Source: a virus. Taken from it: a stretch of DNA of 24,619 nt. This document shows, piece by piece, positions 1,115-21,007 of this stretch. The stretch's first letter is position 1, and each line of letters starts with the position of its first letter. The notes below the pieces were generated by a model that saw only the letters and a list, made by a program, of their open reading frames with translations, was not told the origin of the DNA and searched no databases. Position numbers and translations under genes: made by a program. The stretch spans positions 1 through 24,619 of IMG/VR virus record IMGVR_UViG_3300044491_001302. One strand, given 5' to 3'.

Positions 1115-1274
1115 TATAAAATCCTCTTTCAATTATCGCAGTTTGTACTCTAGGAGCAATAGGTTCAAAGAGTGCCATGGCACCCCTTAACTCATTTACA
1201 TCATCAGTTTTGGCATCTGCCTTTAGCACATCGATGTAGGTTTGTGTATTAGTTAGTGATGTCGATTTTTCCAT
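1089..1274 (-). CDS. Small unknown protein, 61 aa
   Basis: A 61-residue acidic/polar protein I do not recognise. It has no signal peptide, membrane segment or cysteine. The middle (residues 23-45) looks helical with a short hydrophobic stretch (ELRGAMALFEPIAPRV). Its ATG shares a base with the stop of the repeat protein upstream (TAATG), and there is no clear Shine-Dalgarno, so it probably depends on translational coupling. It overlaps the radical SAM start by 26 bases. A small protein beside a SPASM enzyme could in principle be a peptide substrate or a chaperone, but it lacks Cys and obvious RiPP precursor features. A small virion accessory is equally possible. Confidence 0.6.
   Translation of the reverse strand: MEKSTSLTNTQTYIDVLKADAKTDDVNELRGAMALFEPIAPRVQTAIIERGFYNDRKDTSS
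1122..1127 (-). promoter_or_regulatory. Ribosome binding site deciding the radical SAM start
   Basis: AGAGGA on the minus strand, seven bases before the ATG at 1114. It lies within the would-be coding sequence of the longer TTG-started reading and therefore favours the shorter 309-aa protein. Confidence 0.6.
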
Positions 1275-2692
1275 TATAAATTAAATTGTGGGGTTGGTAC
1301 AGATTGGTGTATCTTACTAATTTGATTAGCAGGTGCAGTAGGATCGTTTACATACACCTCTTGTGCTTTTCTAATTGTACCACCTTGATTTATATATACA
1401 CCTTTTGCTTTGGCAATTGGTCCGATAGGTCTAGTCGCTGGGTATGGCTGTTGTGCAGGATTTTGATAAGTCTGCTGATATGTGTATGGTTGCTGATAAG
1501 GTTGCTGTATCGGTCTAGTAGCACCGAATGGTTGTTGATATCCATAAGGTTGCTGGAAAGCATAATTCTGCTGATATCCATAAGGTTGTTGGAAAGGATA
1601 TGGTGTAGTGCCTGTTGCTGGACGTGTTCCAGTTGCAGGTCTTAATGCAGGTGTTTGTCCAGTTGCTGGTCTCGGACCAGTCGCAGGTCTTACTGCTGGA
1701 TAAGGTTGCTGAAATGAATAAGGTTGTTGAAATCCATAAGGTTGCTGGAATGAATATGGAGATTGAAAAGTTGTATTAATCGTTGCTGCCTGTACATTTA
1801 TTGAATTATTTGCTTCATAAACAACTGGAATTGGTTCTTCTTCCCCAAAGTCGAATTCTTCTTCTTCTAATGTCCAATTTACTTGGAAACCAAATGGACC
1901 TGCTGACCCAAAACTAAATGGATATGGTGTATCTGCTGGACTAGATGCTTGATGCAATAGAACATTTGCAACAGTAGGTGTTTGAGCAGTCAATTCAAAC
2001 TCTCCTGGCTGATTAGGAGCAGGATAAAAACCTACAAAGTTGTATGCAAATGTATCACCTTTGTTTATTTGTGCTGAAACAGGCGAATTAGATTGACCAA
2101 ATGGTGATGATATTAAAATATCAGAATAACTCGGTTGTGCTGTTAATGTAACAGGATATGTTGACACCAATGATGGATGCGTTCTTTGATAAGTTTGCTG
2201 ATATGGTTGCTGATACTGATAAGGTATTTGTGTAGCACCTTTGGGTTGCTGATATGGAACAGTTCCAATGGCAGGTCTTACAGCAGTACGAGTAGCAGGT
2301 TGCTGTGCTGGAGTTGGTTGTTGTCCTGTAGCAGGTCTAACCCCTGTAGTGGGTCTTGTTCCACTGGCAGGTCTGGTTGCTGTATAAGGTTGTTGAAATC
2401 CATAAGGTTGCTGAAACGGATATGGAGTTTGATAGGGTTGTTGAAATCCATATGGTTGCTGGAATGGATAAGGTGTTGTCCCAACAGCAGGTCTTGGTCC
2501 ACTTGCAGGTCTTTGTGCTTGAACAGGCACAGTTCCAGTAGCAGGTCTTGTAGCAGTATAAGGTTGTTGTGCTGGTCTTAGAGCAGGTCTAGTTCCAGAT
2601 GCAGGTCTAGTCGCAGGTTGTTGTATAGGTCTGAATGCAGTGTATGGCTGCTGGAAGTTACTCCCGATATTTATGTAGATATCATCAGACAT
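1274..2692 (-). CDS. Pro/Gln/Tyr-rich repeat protein, probable virion or fibre component
   Basis: A 472-aa low-complexity protein. Residues 14-170 and 312-424 are two repeat blocks made of QQPY-containing units (about 15 exact QQPY by manual count, often as FQQPYG) alternating with TRPATG/TRPASG units. Between them, residues about 172-310 form a non-repetitive, beta-rich segment with a strongly acidic patch at 275-286 (LEEEEFDFGEEE). After block two, residues 430-450 (GVYINQGGTIRKAQEVYVND) match the short VYVNxGGTxRxx tandem seen in many phage virion proteins, and the N-terminus (DIYINIG) echoes it. There is no signal peptide or membrane segment. An AAAGGAT ribosome site precedes the ATG. Its place after the fibre gene suggests a tail or fibre decoration. 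The repeats resemble Pro/Tyr-rich adhesive or extensible proteins in composition only; no function is proven. Confidence 0.8.
   Translation of the reverse strand: MSDDIYINIGSNFQQPYTAFRPIQQPATRPASGTRPALRPAQQPYTATRPATGTVPVQAQRPASGPRPAVGTTPYPFQQPYGFQQPYQTPYPFQQPYGFQQPYTATRPASGTRPTTGVRPATGQQPTPAQQPATRTAVRPAIGTVPYQQPKGATQIPYQYQQPYQQTYQRTHPSLVSTYPVTLTAQPSYSDILISSPFGQSNSPVSAQINKGDTFAYNFVGFYPAPNQPGEFELTAQTPTVANVLLHQASSPADTPYPFSFGSAGPFGFQVNWTLEEEEFDFGEEEPIPVVYEANNSINVQAATINTTFQSPYSFQQPYGFQQPYSFQQPYPAVRPATGPRPATGQTPALRPATGTRPATGTTPYPFQQPYGYQQNYAFQQPYGYQQPFGATRPIQQPYQQPYTYQQTYQNPAQQPYPATRPIGPIAKAKGVYINQGGTIRKAQEVYVNDPTAPANQISKIHQSVPTPQFNL
1421..1759 (-). repeat. Second QQPY/RPATG coding repeat block
   Basis: Encodes residues 312-424 of the Pro/Gln/Tyr-rich protein. 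FQQPYG-type units flank a central run of RPATG-type units, followed by a Y-rich tail (TYQQTYQ). On the plus strand it appears as many imperfect copies of a GGTTGTTG(A/G)AA-like string. Confidence 0.8.
2183..2653 (-). repeat. First QQPY/RPATG coding repeat block
   Basis: Encodes residues 14-170 of the Pro/Gln/Tyr-rich protein. Two FQQPYGFQQPY doublets sit between stretches of RPATG and RPASG units. The alternation of Tyr/Gln-rich and Arg-Pro-Thr-Gly-rich segments matches that in the second block, suggesting internal duplication. Confidence 0.8.
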
Positions 2693-7500: not shown

Positions 7501-10500
7501 CAGTCTTAGTATAGTTTGCTGAAGTAGTTGTATCTAGACTAATGTCAAAGAAGTTTGTTACAGACATAGGTCTAAGATGACCATTCTCTGCATCAACTGC
7601 TACTTTATAGTCGGGATGGTTAACATCACCAATACCATGTCCTCTAAAGTTATCTACTAAGAAACCTGACTTGAATCTATCAAATCCATCACCATCAAGT
7701 ATCTGCATAGATTGAGTATCTTTTTCAAGTAGAGATAGAGTCGTTACTCTTTCTAGATTCTTAACTCTATCTGCTAATCTACCGATATCTTTCATAGTAT
7801 ATCTTCTATGATCTTTTGATCGGATAACTACATCATCTAATGTTTCTGTATAAGGTTTGAGTGATAACTCAAACAACTCGATAGCATTATCTACAGGAGA
7901 AGGTCTGGTTGGTGATAAAGAAGGTGTTCCATGAACAACCTGTAATAGACCTGTCTGATGTAAGAATATCTTATCTATTCTTCCAACATAAAAAGTGATA
8001 TCACCAACAACATTTGATCCAGGAACTAGCATATCAACGATAGATGCTCCCGATGCTGTTACACCTGATGTGGATGCTTCGAATGATTTGTTTTCGTAAT
8101 AGAATGGAGCACGAACAGCACCACTTGTAGAGTTTGATAAATCTACAGGGGAACTAGGATCAGGTGTAGTGGCACTAAATGTTGTTGTACCTAATATCTG
8201 ACCAAGAGAAGGTCTAAAGTCAACTGAATCTCTTAATTCATATTCTCCATCTGGTTCTAATGACTCAGGATCTACTCTGTTAGATATGTACTGAGGAATC
8301 TCATCATAATCCACACCAGAGTAAGAATTGACATCGTAGAAATCACCAGATCCTGATGATGTGAAATAATCAAACACCACCATGATAGGTGAAACAGGAG
8401 CAGGTGCTCCAGGTTTTCTAACGATTTTTGCTAAGTCATAGAAACCATCTCTTTGACCATCGTCAAAGAAGTAGTTGTTTGTTATAACTTTTGAACCTGC
8501 ATCTATGGAACCCAATGTTCCTGCTGCTGTAGATGTTGAACCGATAATAGATTCTCCATCACTAAATGCAGTTGTCGAAGTAAGGTAGAAATAGGAAGTG
8601 TTTCCTGTACCACCATAGTTAATCATCACACCTCTGGCACCTGAAGTTTGACCAACAATAACTTCTCCTTGGTCAAATCCAGTGGCAGTGGTTTGTGTAA
8701 TTGTAAAGGAAGGTGCTGTAGCATCATTACCATCTACACCCTCATAGATTGCTCTTAGTTTGAAAGCATCAGATACACCCAATGTGATTTCTTTATCATC
8801 ATAGGCAGTACCATAGAAACCACCAGCACTTCTGGCACTTCCTACTTTCAATACTCTAGCAGATTTTAAGTTTTTATCTCTGTTAACAGGTGAGTTGATA
8901 TCAACTGTGTATGTAACTTTAAGTATAGCACCATCATCTGCGGCATCAAAACCACTAATGGTCAATGTTTGCTGAGAACCTGAAGTAGTAATCGATGTTG
9001 TGATATTATTGGTATTGTCATGAATATCAATGATATCACCATTTAATAAGTTTCCACCTGATTGTTCTTCAACTACAGCAACAATAAAGTTATCTGCTGT
9101 AATGCTGTCAAAAGTTTCACCTGTTTGTGTTGTGATTGCTATTTGTTGAGATGTTACTGTATCAACAACCTGTCTTCTTACAGATACTTGGTCAGGAGTA
9201 TGACTTGATACATAATCTCTTGCCCATGCTGCAATCGCAACTGTTTGTTCTTGATTGTAAATTTTAGTTCTTCTTCTTGTGATGTTACCAGTCTGAGTGC
9301 TACCTGCATTTGCTGTAAGTGTTAAAGAAGTGTCACTTGCTATAGAAGAAACAATTCTTTCATTACCTGCGGAGTCAACTAATATATCACCTTCTTTTAA
9401 TTCAGAAGAGAACAATGTTCCGAATCCTGTTACAGCAGTTGAACCACTTGTTAATGATACTGTACCGACAAGTACATAATCATTATCAGTAACTACATCT
9501 GCAGTAAAGGTTTCTCTTGAAGTGTTTTTAGGAACTTGAGATACACCTCTAACTCTATCTATGTTATAATTTCTTGTTGCTGTATTTTGTCCTGCTGTAA
9601 TTGAACCTGATCCTGAACCATAAGATGTTACACTATCAGAGTCATCCCAGTTTCCTACTACATCATGAATGTATAGATTGCTGGATGTATCGTGTGCTAC
9701 GATACCAGACTTTGTTCCGTCTGCATTGCGTACTTGGTCACCTGCTGTGAATGTTCCACTCTTAGCAGAATATGAAATCTTTGTAAACATCTTAACATCA
9801 AATAGATACAAATTAAAGTTATCTGTTTGATCGTAGATACCATAACTTCCTGATGTGGAAGATGTACCACTTAAATGATCAAAGTTTCTTACACGAGCAT
9901 AACCAATGTGATTTGAAGTTGGTGCAGTTCCTGGAGTAGCAACTGCCACATCCCATAGTTTTACAAAGTTGTATGGTGCTTGTGTATCATCACCTGACTC
10001 ATTACCGAACTCTGGTTCACTATGTACATCTGTAATCTTAAGATAGTTTCCTATTCTAACAGGTGTATTTGCTGCTGTTAAAGATTGAGTTGTGCGTGCC
10101 TTTGATACAGACACTGGAGTGGTTGCTGTTTTCTCAATCTCATAACCTCTCACATATGCTTTTCCAGGAGATACTTGTACTACAAACTTGGTAGAATCTC
10201 CACCATTTGCATTTGAGTAGTATCCTCTGTTTGTACCATCATTAAGATGCTCTCTTAATGAAGTTGTAAATTGTTGAACCACATAGTCACCAGACTCATC
10301 ATAAGTTCTGCGTGCTAATGTGTTTTCAATTTCACTGTAGTTTGTATTACTGACTTTGTTTTCAATAATACCATTGTTAACTCTCAACAATTCAATAAAG
10401 TTAACATCAACAACTGTATCTAATGCTTTCTTTGCAAAAGTAAAATTGACTTTTAATCTATCTGCACCTGGAGCATTCTCATTAGAACTTCCTTGTGCGT

Positions 10501-11221
10501 TATCAAGTAATGAAGAATCGTTAGCACTTGAGACTAATGATTCTGTTACATCTAAACCAACTCTATAAGAAGGTCTGGGTGAATACTTCTCTAGAATGAC
10601 TGTTTGTGCGTCAACCTTAACGAAGAATCCACGAACATAAACAATACCCTCAGATATTGCTGCTGCAGAACCTCTTCCTGTTGGAACTTTATCTTCAGAC
10701 TCTACTTGAAATTGATTGTTGTTAGAAGCAGAAGTAATTGAACCATCAGATCCTACTGCTACTTCACTCAACACTTCTAATGCATCGAAGACTCTAGAGT
10801 TATCTGCATCTGTACCTGCTGCAAGGTACTTAACAAAGAGAGTCAGTGAGTCGTCTGTTGTTTCTGCTGTAGAGTTAACAACTTTTGCGACGACTCCTGT
10901 AGTTCCACCTTGTAAATACTTATCGTGGAAACTTTCTCTATAGGTTTCAACATCAGCAGTACCTGCTGACTCTGGATTTGTATTTTTGACTTTGACATAA
11001 TGGTACTCGAAGTCTGCATCCGATTGTGCTCCAAGAACTATAGACCCTTCTTCAAATATATGATCACCAAATCTTTCGATCTGGTTCTGTAATATTGATT
11101 GTGCCTGAGTTAATTCCCTTGCTTGTATCGGTCTACCTGCTCTGAACAATACACGATGAAACTTTTTACTTTCGTTAAAGTCATCGTAATATGGCGATAC
11201 ATTTAGATCAGTCTTCTCCAT
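4550..11221 (-). CDS. Giant DUF4815-type baseplate/tail-fibre protein, 2223 aa
   Basis: The largest gene here. Residues 1-60 carry the signature NVSPYYDDFNESKKFHRVLF, then RAGRPIQARELTQAQSILQN and QIERFGDHIF, which I recognise as the DUF4815-type head of large tail proteins of marine phages. Residues about 840-915 hold two FxxGExIxGxTSxAxG modules. Around 1400-1440 is the segment SIIPFIRSRDITVTGDGLKP found in the same family. Residues about 1544-1600 are a proline-rich hinge, followed by the DPLAQSFMV / VDVYFKTKD / MVNGYPGQIVLPFS region. The C-terminal third includes a GSGY-type beta module. A GAGGAAG ribosome site precedes the ATG. It lies between gp8 and the fibres, where T4 has gp9-gp12, so a peripheral baseplate or long-fibre role is likely. 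It is far larger than any of those T4 proteins. Confidence 0.8.
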   Translation of the reverse strand: MEKTDLNVSPYYDDFNESKKFHRVLFRAGRPIQARELTQAQSILQNQIERFGDHIFEEGSIVLGAQSDADFEYHYVKVKNTNPESAGTADVETYRESFHDKYLQGGTTGVVAKVVNSTAETTDDSLTLFVKYLAAGTDADNSRVFDALEVLSEVAVGSDGSITSASNNNQFQVESEDKVPTGRGSAAAISEGIVYVRGFFVKVDAQTVILEKYSPRPSYRVGLDVTESLVSSANDSSLLDNAQGSSNENAPGADRLKVNFTFAKKALDTVVDVNFIELLRVNNGIIENKVSNTNYSEIENTLARRTYDESGDYVVQQFTTSLREHLNDGTNRGYYSNANGGDSTKFVVQVSPGKAYVRGYEIEKTATTPVSVSKARTTQSLTAANTPVRIGNYLKITDVHSEPEFGNESGDDTQAPYNFVKLWDVAVATPGTAPTSNHIGYARVRNFDHLSGTSSTSGSYGIYDQTDNFNLYLFDVKMFTKISYSAKSGTFTAGDQVRNADGTKSGIVAHDTSSNLYIHDVVGNWDDSDSVTSYGSGSGSITAGQNTATRNYNIDRVRGVSQVPKNTSRETFTADVVTDNDYVLVGTVSLTSGSTAVTGFGTLFSSELKEGDILVDSAGNERIVSSIASDTSLTLTANAGSTQTGNITRRRTKIYNQEQTVAIAAWARDYVSSHTPDQVSVRRQVVDTVTSQQIAITTQTGETFDSITADNFIVAVVEEQSGGNLLNGDIIDIHDNTNNITTSITTSGSQQTLTISGFDAADDGAILKVTYTVDINSPVNRDKNLKSARVLKVGSARSAGGFYGTAYDDKEITLGVSDAFKLRAIYEGVDGNDATAPSFTITQTTATGFDQGEVIVGQTSGARGVMINYGGTGNTSYFYLTSTTAFSDGESIIGSTSTAAGTLGSIDAGSKVITNNYFFDDGQRDGFYDLAKIVRKPGAPAPVSPIMVVFDYFTSSGSGDFYDVNSYSGVDYDEIPQYISNRVDPESLEPDGEYELRDSVDFRPSLGQILGTTTFSATTPDPSSPVDLSNSTSGAVRAPFYYENKSFEASTSGVTASGASIVDMLVPGSNVVGDITFYVGRIDKIFLHQTGLLQVVHGTPSLSPTRPSPVDNAIELFELSLKPYTETLDDVVIRSKDHRRYTMKDIGRLADRVKNLERVTTLSLLEKDTQSMQILDGDGFDRFKSGFLVDNFRGHGIGDVNHPDYKVAVDAENGHLRPMSVTNFFDISLDTTTSANYTKTGDLIHLPFSEVPFVNQSKASKAINVNPYNVFAFTGTLNLSPGTDVWNDTQTLPEIRVNREGNFDTVLAGVGNSLGTVWNNWQTSWVGQPNNTGTETVSNRAGAWEGTPGQGGTWVPGSRTTRTITETPETQTRSGIRTSVVEEFTEDRNTRTVGISIIPFIRSRDITVTGDGLKPNTFHYVYFDGIDVDSFCTPSSATYSQSGSASLGAGVKTDRSGDISFTFSIPNSSAQRFPTGERVLTVISDPNGQIDADSKAQATYSARGLLQSNQTTVVATRNGRVIQEQTSGNRTITRRGEELNAVQFDLTAPTIPTPIPTVTIPSPVIAPALIPTPPAPPVPARVEPILPIRQFPEIQNPGNPRIPGNLRIQMMDGGWRDPLAQSFMVVADGGMFLSSVDVYFKTKDDSLPVNVEIRNMVNGYPGQIVLPFSSVSKKPSAVNTSANGATATTFTFESPVYVENNTEYCVVVLSNSNEYEVFVSEMGGTDLITQEVITDQPYAGVLFKSQNASTWSAEQLEDLKFKLNQCKFDTSQKGTVRFNNDALDSTRLGASPISFISGNSKVKVSHYSHGMYDASGNVTLSGITGDRTDSVLSITNPSAVGSGSLPADGTYDDIATTTSGSGTGATVKVVVASSAISSWEIKNPGSGYDAADTLTVTNFGSATNSTTFAIDTVGDTLGGFPIAALNTTFTALTDIEIDSYTVTPSLSAYDLVGGAIETSRGGGASVLATQDYYFDTLHTMIPSLTFKDTYMLCNVRTTPAKSPEGVINGTQYTRGSVSNYIALNDNVFFSDGQMVASGINENNEMSNAKSFTLQLSLQSLNPNLSPIIDVSTIGCLAIHNRINNVDSSSDVGSYSTYFDSTEAEGDNNAMVYITKRVNLKTPATAIKVMADIFRNSTNDVKLMFKVLRNDESLPFDEIGWTYFNTDGSPDITVEADSRNFKEYEYTVNNLAEFTAFAIKIVGQGTKTTEIPIVQNFRAIALAT

Positions 11222-11234
11222 TATGCTTCCTCAA

Positions 11235-12704
11235 TTACATCTCTATGATTAGTTTAATATCTTCGATTTGGTCTGCTGCTCTTGATACAGCACCTCTATT
11301 CTCAATGTAAGTTACTTGACCTGAGTATCTTTGAACTTCAGGGAATCCTGAAGTGACAGAGGATATAGTTCCAACTGATGCACCACTTACATATACAGTA
11401 TCTGCTGCACTGAATGATTCCAATGTACCATCACTGTTTACAACAGGAAGGTAAGATACTTCTAAAGTTGATGAATTCCATGAAACGACTCGCCCTTTTG
11501 CTACACCGACACCATCTGAACTTGCGTCTGTAATGATATCGTCAACTGAAACAGATCCACCTGAATTAAAGATGAATTTGTTGACTGCGGATAAAGTTGT
11601 TGCTGTAGCAACTGTAGTTGTACCAGCATCAAATGGGTCAACTACTAGACCTATTCTTCTAAAGTCATTATCAGTTGGGAAGTCACCAGATCCTTCAGCA
11701 TACTCTAAACGAGCATTTAGAATGACATAGTTTCCACCCAATTCTGTTACAGGGTCTGCCCCATGACCATAGATTGGTGAAATGATAGGTGTTAATGTTA
11801 ATGTACCTGAATTAGTACCCACACCTGACATGTCAGCAAGGTTTAACTGAGCATTTTTATATCCTGTGCCATTAGTAGTCATAGTGACATGAGTGATCGC
11901 ACCACCTGCTACTGTTACTGTACATTCTGCGTCAGTACCAGAACCATTGTCACCTTTAACTGCGACACTTGTATAAGTTCCGTTGTTTAAACCTGCTCCA
12001 CCTGAGTCAACAGCAATGTGAAGGATTGCTCCATCCACTGCGTCGTTCTCAACATCCCATTGTGCTGAACTGTCGTCAGAAGCAGCAGATCCTATTGCAG
12101 CACTGTCACCGATTACTTCAGTTTGAGCACCAATAGTTTTTACTGGGATAAAGTCATTTGTTACGAATTTGATAACATCAGATGCTGTAATACTGTACAT
12201 GTATTTCCAAAGATATCCTCTACCTGATGCAGCACTTGAATCTGAAGTAGCAACCAAAGAAGAACTTGAAGTTCCTGTTGGTTTTACATCAGATGCTACA
12301 GGGTTACCAGAGGAATCTCTTCCTGTTCTGATACATTTGTATACATTATAGTCATCTGTGATAACATGAAATCTCGAATCGTATAGATTCGTTGCACCTG
12401 ATGGTGCTGAGTTTGATGAGGAATAGTCATGACGATATTCGTCATAAATTGTTCCACTAGTCCAGTCTCTTCGGACAATACCATGCGATACATCGGACGA
12501 GGTGATTTTCTTCAAAGCAACCATGTCATCATATGCATCGATCTCATTGGAATTATTATCCACTGGTGTTTCGACTGTATCGTCGGTTCCCCATAACCAT
12601 GGGCGACCGATAAACATGTATGTGCTAGAAGCAGATTCACCGAAGTCCTCTTTGAATTGGCGAGCATTGTTCAAACGAAACTTCTCTGTGATAATTGCAG
12701 CCAT
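11235..12704 (-). CDS. 8: Baseplate wedge protein gp8
   Basis: A 489-aa homologue of T4 gp8 (334 aa). N-terminal EKFRLNNARQF and the FIGRPWLW segment match the T4 start. DVSHGIVRRDWTSG matches the conserved RRDW block, YLWKYMYSITASD matches the WEYLFEI block, and RRIGLVVDPFDAGT the RQISIITNP block. The C-terminus (YSGQVTYIENRGAVSRAADQ) matches the T4 ending GEMIYMENRPPI. The extra length comes from internal beta modules: one with NGTGY near the middle, and one from about 11350 to 11580 with DDIITDASSDGVGVAKG. In T4, gp8 dimers join the wedge through gp7 and gp10. It has its own late promoter at 12734-12741 and an AGGAG site at 12711-12715, six bases before the ATG, so it probably begins a transcript covering gp8, the giant and the fibres. 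Confidence 0.9.
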   Translation of the reverse strand: MAAIITEKFRLNNARQFKEDFGESASSTYMFIGRPWLWGTDDTVETPVDNNSNEIDAYDDMVALKKITSSDVSHGIVRRDWTSGTIYDEYRHDYSSSNSAPSGATNLYDSRFHVITDDYNVYKCIRTGRDSSGNPVASDVKPTGTSSSSLVATSDSSAASGRGYLWKYMYSITASDVIKFVTNDFIPVKTIGAQTEVIGDSAAIGSAASDDSSAQWDVENDAVDGAILHIAVDSGGAGLNNGTYTSVAVKGDNGSGTDAECTVTVAGGAITHVTMTTNGTGYKNAQLNLADMSGVGTNSGTLTLTPIISPIYGHGADPVTELGGNYVILNARLEYAEGSGDFPTDNDFRRIGLVVDPFDAGTTTVATATTLSAVNKFIFNSGGSVSVDDIITDASSDGVGVAKGRVVSWNSSTLEVSYLPVVNSDGTLESFSAADTVYVSGASVGTISSVTSGFPEVQRYSGQVTYIENRGAVSRAADQIEDIKLIIEM

Positions 12705-19359: not shown

Positions 19360-19367
19360 TATTTATA
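19360..19367 (-). promoter_or_regulatory. T4-type late promoter abutting gp25 (leaderless)
   Basis: Minus-strand TATAAATA within GAGTATAAATACTGATATG. Only CTGAT separates it from the gp25 ATG, which places the predicted +1 on the A of that codon. The element contains the TAA stop of the 2OG oxygenase gene (19363-19365). Confidence 0.7.
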
Positions 19368-19899
19368 CTCGGTGTGTTACTTTATTCATCAGATTATACA
19401 TAAAAACCCATCTATCTTGACTGTTTGCATTCGTAAAGGAATGAAAAGATCGATCATTCCTCAGAAAGAAGTATCCTTTATTCACAGTCCAAGGATGCTC
19501 CCACATTCCATCCCCATCTTGAGACTCATAAAATCTCGTGCCTGCAGAGGACACAGGATCCACATAGGTTAAAAATGTTCCTACCTTAGTCGCGTCGTCG
19601 GTGTGTATAGGATAAGTCATTCCAGTAGGAGTCCTTTGTAACACTGCTTTAATATCATCAAAGAATATCGTAGTCTTTAACAGAGATTCTATGCGTGGTA
19701 ATATTCCAATAAAATGCGTGTACATATATTCCATGACAGGGCACTTCTCACACCATGGTCGTTTCCAATATTCAAATTCAATCTGATGCCTTTCATTCTG
19801 TTCCTTTGCCATATATCCTTTGAGTGTCTCGAATATATCGGGAGCAAAGAAATTATTAAATTCAATCAGAGGGATCGGACTATTTGGGTTTAGATACAT
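19363..19899 (-). CDS. 2OG-Fe(II) oxygenase (prolyl 4-hydroxylase-like)
   Basis: A 178-aa protein with the double-stranded beta-helix dioxygenase signature: H99-T-D101 (in YPIHTDD), a distal H153 (in RSFHSFTN), and R163 (in QDRWVFM) as the likely 2-oxoglutarate anchor, in the right order and spacing. FLTYVDPVSSAGTRFYE and GYFFLRNDRSFHS resemble the prolyl 4-hydroxylase-like branch that recurs in marine T4-like phages. The enzyme would hydroxylate a substrate using Fe(II), O2 and 2-oxoglutarate; that substrate is unknown. I chose the ATG at 19899, which overlaps gp5 by 20 bases and has AAGGTGATGG upstream. ATGs at 19908 and 19929 are in frame and possible; the latter overlaps gp5 by 50 bases and has no ribosome site. 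Its place between gp5 and gp25 means it is expressed with the baseplate. Confidence 0.8.
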   Translation of the reverse strand: MYLNPNSPIPLIEFNNFFAPDIFETLKGYMAKEQNERHQIEFEYWKRPWCEKCPVMEYMYTHFIGILPRIESLLKTTIFFDDIKAVLQRTPTGMTYPIHTDDATKVGTFLTYVDPVSSAGTRFYESQDGDGMWEHPWTVNKGYFFLRNDRSFHSFTNANSQDRWVFMYNLMNKVTHRV

Positions 19900-21007
19900 C
19901 CTTACCATCACCTTGTTCAGTATGTACATGAGTAGAGAGTTCTATGCCTTTACCTGTGACTTCACCTTCGGCAACGATATTTTTTGTCACCGTGACTTCA
20001 GCATCGATTGCTACAGTGGGTGCGGTCATATTAATATTTCCTGTGGAAGTAATATTGGTATCACCACCGACCGTGATATTTGCATTGCCTTGTGCGACAT
20101 TAATGGTCACATTACCTGACTCTACATGGACGATGGCACTACCACCGATATATAAATGATCATCTTTGCAAATAACCTCATAATGATCATTCACCACACG
20201 ATGAACTTCATCTCCATCCTGCCATATTTCTTTATAAGTACCAGAGCGATGGAAGTCTACGATTCGTTCGCGTCCTGGAGTATCATCCACACTAAAATAA
20301 TGACCACTTTCCGTCTCAGTGACTTTATTATATGGATATTGTGTTGCTGTAGTGTCTTTAGTTTTCTCAGGTAATTCAAATACACTGAGAGTTGTGGGTT
20401 TGTAAGTGGGTTCACTGCCATTGATTGCTTTATCTGACACATCGGTCTGATCCCTGTATAAAGGATAATAAGGCAGATCGTCAGTCGTGAGTGTTTTCTC
20501 AGTGATGGTACTTGCCGTGCCATCGAGTTTTATTTCTACAGACTCAGGATGCTTGGGTGCTTTATCTAATGCTGCTGTGAGTCCCCAAGAACGAGAAGGA
20601 TCTTGCACTGGATTGATTCCATCGGGAGTGTCGTCATAGTCTGTGGCTGTTAATCGACGAGGATCATTAAATCCATCTTCCACACTGGGAGTGATGAGTT
20701 GATTTTTTATATCCTTGCGTGCTCCAGAGGATGGAATACCCAAAGAAGAACCCAAGACGATAAAATTTTGCTTGGCATTATCAGTGAAAACTCCGATCAC
20801 AGTGGATCCTTCAATCAAACCATGAGTGGTCTTGCCTATACCTGAGAGCGATGCTTCTGTCGTGGGCATGATCACACTTGACCATGGTAAATCTGCCGAT
20901 GCTATTTGTTGTTTGTCATGCGTATGTATCCCATGTACACGCACACGCACTCGTCCCACTCCTAGTGGGTCGTGCCTATCTTCTACCATTCCATAATATA
21001 ATTCCAT
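19880..21007 (-). CDS. 5: Baseplate hub spike gp5 (no lysozyme domain)
   Basis: A 375-aa gp5/VgrG-type central spike. Residues 1-95 form the OB-fold: MELYYGMVEDRHDPLGVGRV and RVRVHGIHTHD, then DLPWSSVIMPTTEAS and EGSTVIGVF. Residues about 274-357 are a repetitive triple-stranded beta-helix (GNVTINVAQGNANITVGGDT, then NITSTGNINMTAP). H360-V-H362 near the C-terminus matches the HxH metal-binding apex of phage spikes. T4 gp5 is 575 aa and has a lysozyme domain between OB-fold and helix; here the linker shows no lysozyme signature, so cell-wall digestion must come from elsewhere. The spike sits under the gp27-like hub and pierces the outer membrane. Its ATG overlaps the hub stop as TAATG, and an AGGAGC ribosome site precedes it. 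Confidence 0.88.
   Translation of the reverse strand: MELYYGMVEDRHDPLGVGRVRVRVHGIHTHDKQQIASADLPWSSVIMPTTEASLSGIGKTTHGLIEGSTVIGVFTDNAKQNFIVLGSSLGIPSSGARKDIKNQLITPSVEDGFNDPRRLTATDYDDTPDGINPVQDPSRSWGLTAALDKAPKHPESVEIKLDGTASTITEKTLTTDDLPYYPLYRDQTDVSDKAINGSEPTYKPTTLSVFELPEKTKDTTATQYPYNKVTETESGHYFSVDDTPGRERIVDFHRSGTYKEIWQDGDEVHRVVNDHYEVICKDDHLYIGGSAIVHVESGNVTINVAQGNANITVGGDTNITSTGNINMTAPTVAIDAEVTVTKNIVAEGEVTGKGIELSTHVHTEQGDGKDVSKPK

Follow-up and report, generated by a model that had tools for sequence, protein, structure and literature searches.

Low-complexity Pro/Gln/Tyr repeats are usually dismissed as disordered, and the locus described here raises the question of what such repeats build when they fill two long blocks of a protein encoded in a phage fibre cluster. 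We addressed this question in a window of 24,619 nucleotides (the whole stretch of viral DNA that was analysed, IMG/VR record IMGVR_UViG_3300044491_001302) and in its relatives.

A repeat protein at the end of a fibre module

The minus strand of the window carries at 1274-2692 an ORF of 472 amino acids with an ATG start, which is rich in P (15.7%), Q (14.4%), T (10.6%), A (9.5%) and Y (7.8%). Its 24 repeat words (15 QQPY, 6 RPATG and 3 RPASG) compare with a maximum of 3 across 10,000 residue shuffles, and a two-face model (see below) places the repeat blocks at about 11-174 and 308-422, on both sides of an acidic centre (EEEEFDFGEEE). The preliminary description of this DNA, which had reported QQPY/RPATG blocks around an acidic, beta-rich centre, was thus correct, positions included. 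At the DNA level, the repeats have mostly diverged (the detectable arrays are short, with 18-48-nt units only) and their codons are mixed, which indicates that the repeat pattern is kept at the protein level. The features are as follows.

1274..2692, minus strand: putative fused (single-gene) needle protein, 472 aa (ORF, repeats, relatives)
2654..2692, minus strand: base motif at the N-terminus (residues 1-13, MSDDIYINIGSNF), conserved throughout the family
2171..2653, minus strand: predicted N-arm (out-strand), residues 14-174 (two-face HMM, register tests)
1772..2170, minus strand: predicted tip domain, residues 175-307, acidic and fast evolving (two-face HMM, comparison with the relative L004)
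1427..1771, minus strand: predicted C-arm (return strand), residues 308-422, mirror-complementary to the N-arm (HMM, pairing tests)
1274..1426, minus strand: C-terminal base domain, residues 423-472 plus stop (RPIGPIAKAKGVYINQGGTIRKAQEVYVND...KIHQSVP), 94% identical to L004
2703..4343, minus strand: upstream fibre-like gene, 546 aa, ending GHLWFVV, which precedes the needle gene in 114/121 family loci

The needle gene is preceded, in order, by genes for gp25, gp6, a head-closure-like giant, gp8 (phrog_438, E 1e-136), a DUF4815/VrlC giant, a small virion protein (phrog_473) and the 546-aa fibre-like protein; on its other side, a 61-aa ORF comes first, then a gene for a radical-SAM/SPASM protein and an epimerase-like fragment. 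The needle gene closes a T4-like module of baseplate and fibre genes, which bears out the earlier placement in a structural module. In pelagimyophages, the stretch that follows VrlC has been called a hypervariable cluster for host recognition that includes tail fibres (PMC7029224); the needle gene of the window is located shortly after the VrlC-type gene. The C-terminal tandem of the protein (VYINQGGTIRKAQEVYVND) had been taken to tie it to virions, a link that its sole clear match does not sustain, this match being phrog_13729 (function unknown; E 4e-4, 25 residues), which aligns to about 25-34 residues of the C-terminal base domain and to that stretch only.

The window protein as query found no match by tblastn in 50,697 annotated phages and no direct match in viral contigs. 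Pfam and PDB searches returned nothing usable for the family and no homologue of known structure, and we found no literature on this repeat family. The family was reached only via a neighbour gene: the DUF4815 protein fetched contigs with 48 loci, nearly all of which carry a relative at the same place, and a second scan with a C-domain profile gave 80 viral loci and one contig of a metagenome-assembled genome (MAG). Relatives stand at the same fibre-cluster position in about 120 loci of uncultured marine T4-like phages, and the distinct members comprise 25 fused proteins and 47 split pairs of adjacent genes, A and B, lying a few nucleotides apart. In the split phages, A has the N-terminal motif, repeats and a variable domain, and B has repeats and the C-terminal domain. 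The family shares the N-terminal motif M-S/A-D-E-I-Y-I-N-x-G...FQQPY (invariant residues M1 D3 I5 Y6 N8 G10 Q14 Q15 P16 Y17) and the C-terminal domain RPIGPxAKVKGVFVNDGGT...VEKIHQSVP, while the repeat wordings vary (SPFTYQHR, QEPNIRNQ, QPYPYIANA, RPATGT).

The surroundings are shared as well, the same upstream fibre end being found in 114 and the same downstream 110-aa gene in 119 of the 121 C-domain loci, some contigs of which were fetched twice. One contig (L005:9221-12300) is a natural empty site, where the fibre gene (10114-11013) adjoins the 110-aa MAIIANIF gene (11040-11375) and the needle gene is absent. The 110-aa gene that follows the needle gene (L013:12363-12695 and equivalents) also occurs in cultured Melnitz, Mosig, HTVC008M and cyanophages. 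It is annotated as tail fibre or fibre assembly, and its product is a candidate base or assembly partner of the needle. Another member, L141, lies on the 121-kb contig of a MAG labelled Sphingobacteriales (JAAXIF010000105.1), which is either a host clue or a mis-binned phage; photosystem genes, sought as a host clue, were not found.

Two alternating faces and an antiparallel register

Across the family, the spacing between consecutive prolines is even in 1948 of 2168 cases, and in the window protein it is even in 63 of 73 cases, versus 54% on average and 76% at most in its shuffles. Up to lags of at least 40 residues, self-similarity is higher at even than at adjacent odd lags. A three-state model trained without any labels yields two alternating faces, a (P25 Q24 T12 I10 R9 N8) and b (Y18 A12 S12 Q8 T7 F6 N6 R6 V6 H5), where Pro makes up 25% of face a and 0.0% of face b, Tyr makes up 0.1% of face a, and unbroken two-face runs reach about 320 residues with no slip. 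Indels among related arms are even in 66 cases and odd in 4, and those among tips are even in 34 and odd in 50. An even-step register is the prediction of an extended strand with alternating side chains, and one-parity Pro would fit a strand whose other parity gives its backbone NH to a partner. In L006-L051, A and B of a single phage both show superperiods of 18 or 20 residues, and these may mark the twist of the shaft.

The partner appeared when arm A was set against the reversed arm B (ANTIPARALLEL), in a single fixed register counted from the first Q of QQP in arm A and from the R of TRPI in reversed arm B. Pro-Pro coincidences peak at shift -3 in both split pairs (211, 5.75x) and fused proteins (137, 3.83x) and are depleted at the nearby same-parity shifts (-1, +1), while the parallel alignment of the arms gives no Pro-Pro peak and no shift that stands out. 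Held-out split pairs peak at the same shift -3 (197, 4.79x), and three held-out fused proteins peak at +3 instead by this crude measure. For residues that face each other, mutual information is highest at shift -1, with 0.85 and 0.88 bit on the two faces over a background of about 0.10-0.15. The learned pairings associate P with Q/R; T/I with N/D/S/A; Y/F with A/G (Y also with R); E with S; Q with T/S; and H with N, and like residues avoid each other (observed/expected: P-P 20/190, Q-Q 10/158, Y-Y 2/122, A-A 6/75). The runner-up diagonal falls to one side on one face and to the opposite side on the other, as would be expected of a twisted antiparallel ribbon.

The following tests bear on this register. 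First, a pair potential learned on the first set placed 11/11 held-out split pairs best at the learned register, i.e. best of 121 antiparallel shifts and also above every parallel shift. Second, with each cluster left out in turn, the learned register ranked 1 of 242 in 33/33 clusters, and in 30/33 when the 40 basal rungs were removed from both training and test (window rank 1 of 236), the failures then being L044, L089 and L125. Third, the mutual information is 0.94/0.92 bit for true partners versus 0.09/0.13 for swapped ones (at most 0.16 over 200 trials), and in 17/20 phages the true partner comes first among 20; in three it does not. The swapped-partner drop and the true-partner ranking show that the complementarity is a property of cognate pairs and does not stem from composition or shared ancestry; homologous repeats do share ancestry, which the swapped-partner and shift controls address, and the clusters are not fully independent. 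We conclude that the arms almost certainly pair antiparallel and in register. As a separate observation, L089, L125 and their close relatives form a fused subfamily whose arm register is weak without the base and whose Pro-Pro peak lies at +3, not -3, perhaps owing to extra bulges or a 6-residue offset.

The same signals hold in the window protein. When it and L004 were left out of training, the learned register ranked first for both, also without the base, and the window scored 36 versus -196 +/- 38 in shuffles (p 3e-4). Across 114 rungs, 18 prolines coincide (of 24 and 22 available; word-shuffle p 5e-5), compared with at most 16 under 56 even circular shifts. The alternation of QQPY and RPATG blocks is explained by the facing of RPATGT words of one arm with QQPYGF words of the other (R:Q, A:Y, G:F/Y). 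This mirror complementarity of the two repeat blocks goes beyond what the preliminary description contained. Only about 114 rungs pair (the part of the N-arm that faces the C-arm being residues 17-130), and the outer ~45 N-arm residues have no partner repeat. A blind whole-chain axis scan missed the axis in the window protein and found it in the fused L049, L022 and L040.

Two other architectures come into question. One is a shaft in the form of a beta-solenoid or of a triple-stranded parallel beta-helix, in which the repeats would be coils and the arms would not pair; it could draw on the octad and 18/20-residue periodicities of several relatives and on T4 gp5C, a known triple-stranded helix (PMC4576200). 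We regard it as extremely improbable in view of the absence of a register signal in parallel alignment, of repeat lengths (6, 8, 10, 18, 20) that change in even steps and vary even within one protein, of the barring of Pro from one parity and of the partner-specific antiparallel complementarity. A collagen-like phage fibre was also considered and rejected, as 0/174 proteins have at least 5 consecutive GXX.

Matched arms and a variable tip

In 12 distinct pairs of the first set, the arm lengths of A and B correlate with r 0.997 (mean difference 4 aa for arms of 166-325 aa, permutation p 1e-5). The correlation is 0.989 in held-out clusters; when the 47 pairs are taken together it is 0.996, with arms of 168-325 aa that differ by 3.9 aa on average. 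Arms also change length together: between the window protein and its nearest relative L004, the indels are of 18 and 26 aa in the N-arm and of 2 and 10 aa in the C-arm, with a net change of 8 in each, and between L017 and L083 gaps of 10 and 2 occur in both arms.

These matched lengths weigh on the idea that the arms are disordered, elastic or adhesive Pro/Tyr-rich segments (gluten-, elastin- or mussel-like), adhering to surfaces or serving as a slack tether. The P-, Q- and Y-rich composition and the very low AF2 confidence of the arms agree with this idea, but disorder predicts neither the even-only Pro spacing and indels, nor equal arm lengths in two separately encoded chains, nor a partner-specific register of 0.9 bit per rung, so that we consider it very unlikely; the adhesive or extensible character first suggested for the protein finds no support in the same evidence. 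Of the flexible fibre coat suggested with it, the fibre remains the best reading, while flexibility does not agree with the strict register and the paired arms. Together, the two-residue periodicity, the one-parity Pro, the even indels, the matched arms and the partner-specific antiparallel register argue for a paired beta structure, and the arms would be beta strands throughout this proposal.

The tip behaves differently from the arms. Between the window protein and L004, the tip (175-307) is 49% identical, whereas the arms and ends are 61-94% identical, the C-domain being at 94%, and most neighbouring proteins of the two phages are 86-90% identical. Similarly, L027 and L032 share 90 and 92% of their arms, 98% of their C-domain and 25% of their tip, and L105 and L107 are 93 and 97% identical in the arms, 100% in the C-domain and 46% in the tip. 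Hypervariability between near-identical arms is, in such comparisons, the pattern expected of a recognition domain, and we consider it likely that the tip binds a receptor.

A proposed length-adjustable needle and its relation to known fibres

From these data, we propose that the protein is probably a tail-fibre needle, with its arms zipped antiparallel, its base at both chain ends and a variable tip. The N-terminal motif and the C-terminal domain would sit together at the base; from there, the N-arm would run outward as one long beta strand to the variable tip domain at the far end, and the C-arm would return antiparallel, zipped to the N-arm at one fixed register. In most relatives, two adjacent genes would make the same object, A providing the base motif, the out-strand and the tip, and B the return strand and the base domain. 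On one face of the ribbon, Tyr/Phe would stand opposite Ala/Gly, and on the other face Pro opposite Gln/Arg and Thr/Ile opposite Asn/Asp/Ser. With such side-chain complementarity, the two arms would gain or lose length in concert as the tip diversifies, a pattern suggestive of a shaft of adjustable length with a tip that binds a receptor. At about 0.33 nm per rung, the paired shaft would measure roughly 38 nm in the window and up to about 107 nm in relatives. Whether three hairpins assemble into a putative six-stranded trimer is, in our estimate, an even chance.

The AF2 models are poor (pLDDT 33 and, for the fused L049, 39) and give no complete fold; they predict the N-terminal motif (residues 5-8 in the window protein) and the C-terminal domain (432-463, at moderate confidence) as strands. 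In L049, the only arm strands are 20-33 and 419-432, the ends of which sum to 452, the value given independently by the pairing code (axis 226); this predicted strand pair agrees weakly with the predicted register.

An antiparallel ribbon might instead belong to an object other than a receptor-binding tail fibre, such as a capsid or neck fibre, a whisker or a baseplate strap. The pairing evidence would then be identical and the synteny with fibre genes is only indirect, but in relatives the needle gene lies between a fibre gene and the 110-aa gene annotated as tail fibre, the locus is of the type that in related phages is called a host recognition cluster (PMC7029224) and the hypervariable part is the tip, so that we hold this alternative to be unlikely, though less so than disorder. 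The preferred tail-fibre needle, or a fibre of another kind, would probably be located on the virion, a location read from synteny only.

T4 gp37 offers the closest topology. It is a trimeric, six-stranded needle with a receptor-binding head (PMC9659904), in which the collar D10 comprises residues 811-881 and 1010-1026, the stem and tip D11 comprise residues 882-1009, and a small residue of one chain contacts a large one of another (G921 against F970; PMC6957217). The likeness lies in the topology, both chain ends being at the base, with an out-strand, an apical head and an antiparallel return strand; in the needle family the fixed antiparallel register, the anchors placed adjacent at the base and the tip between the arms would correspond to it, as far as sequences alone can tell. 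The family differs from gp37 in having no detectable sequence homology to it and no Pfam or PDB relation, in being Pro-rich with 9 HxH in 174 proteins (T4 D11 has no Pro and 7 of these metal-binding motifs, which line the gp37 stem core) and in its low-complexity, often two-gene arms of up to 325 residues. The learned pair potential gave no signal when applied to T4 gp37. As sequence relation, HxH, composition and pairing code are all unmatched, we do not file the needle family as a member of gp37.

Other kyanoviruses (HTVC008M, Mosig, Melnitz, S-RIM8, S-T4) share the module with its gp8, VrlC/DUF4815 giant, small structural protein and fibre genes; several also carry the 110-aa gene known from the downstream side of the needle gene in relatives, and one family contig encodes a gp23 with 66.5% identity to that of Melnitz. 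With the queries tried, tblastn found no needle gene in 50,697 phage records, nor did the two-face model detect a member in the examined stretches of cultured relatives. Matches of needle queries in Salmonella look like low-complexity matches.

On balance, we favour the view that a partner-specific, residue-by-residue pairing code, loosely like base pairing, joins two long strands that are often encoded by separate genes. Under this code (large faces small, Pro faces Gln/Arg), the shaft would be free to drift in both length and sequence, provided that the partner strand compensates. We know of no protein fibre built on such a code, and the two-gene split with compensating arms is, to our knowledge, new. 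Comparative sequence alone yields strand direction, register and partner in a family with no Pfam entry, PDB entry or cultured relative. If true, the model adds a new construction principle for phage fibres, a zipper needle made from two genes that evolves in length by matched steps; it also suggests where the receptor-binding site lies in a widespread uncultured marine phage group and offers some 70 distinct, naturally occurring strand pairs for learning the rules of antiparallel beta pairing.

Modification of the repeats was considered in two forms and set aside in both. Pro hydroxylation by phage 2OG oxygenases was examined through PF13640, which matches 3-6 times per contig in 11/12 family contigs, not specifically beside needle genes. 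Between the gp25 and gp5-like genes of the window, a 188-aa protein (19363-19929) shows by eye the H-x-D...R pattern of 2OG-Fe(II) oxygenases and has no significant Pfam match. The radical-SAM/SPASM protein downstream of the needle gene (window:185-1132, beside the epimerase-like fragment and the 61-aa ORF) has a 90% identical copy in L004, the only one of the first fetched loci to carry it, again beside an epimerase-like ORF; this restricted occurrence and the epimerase-like neighbour make a glycan cluster more likely than repeat modification, and 185-1132 looks like the start of a glycan-modification cluster.
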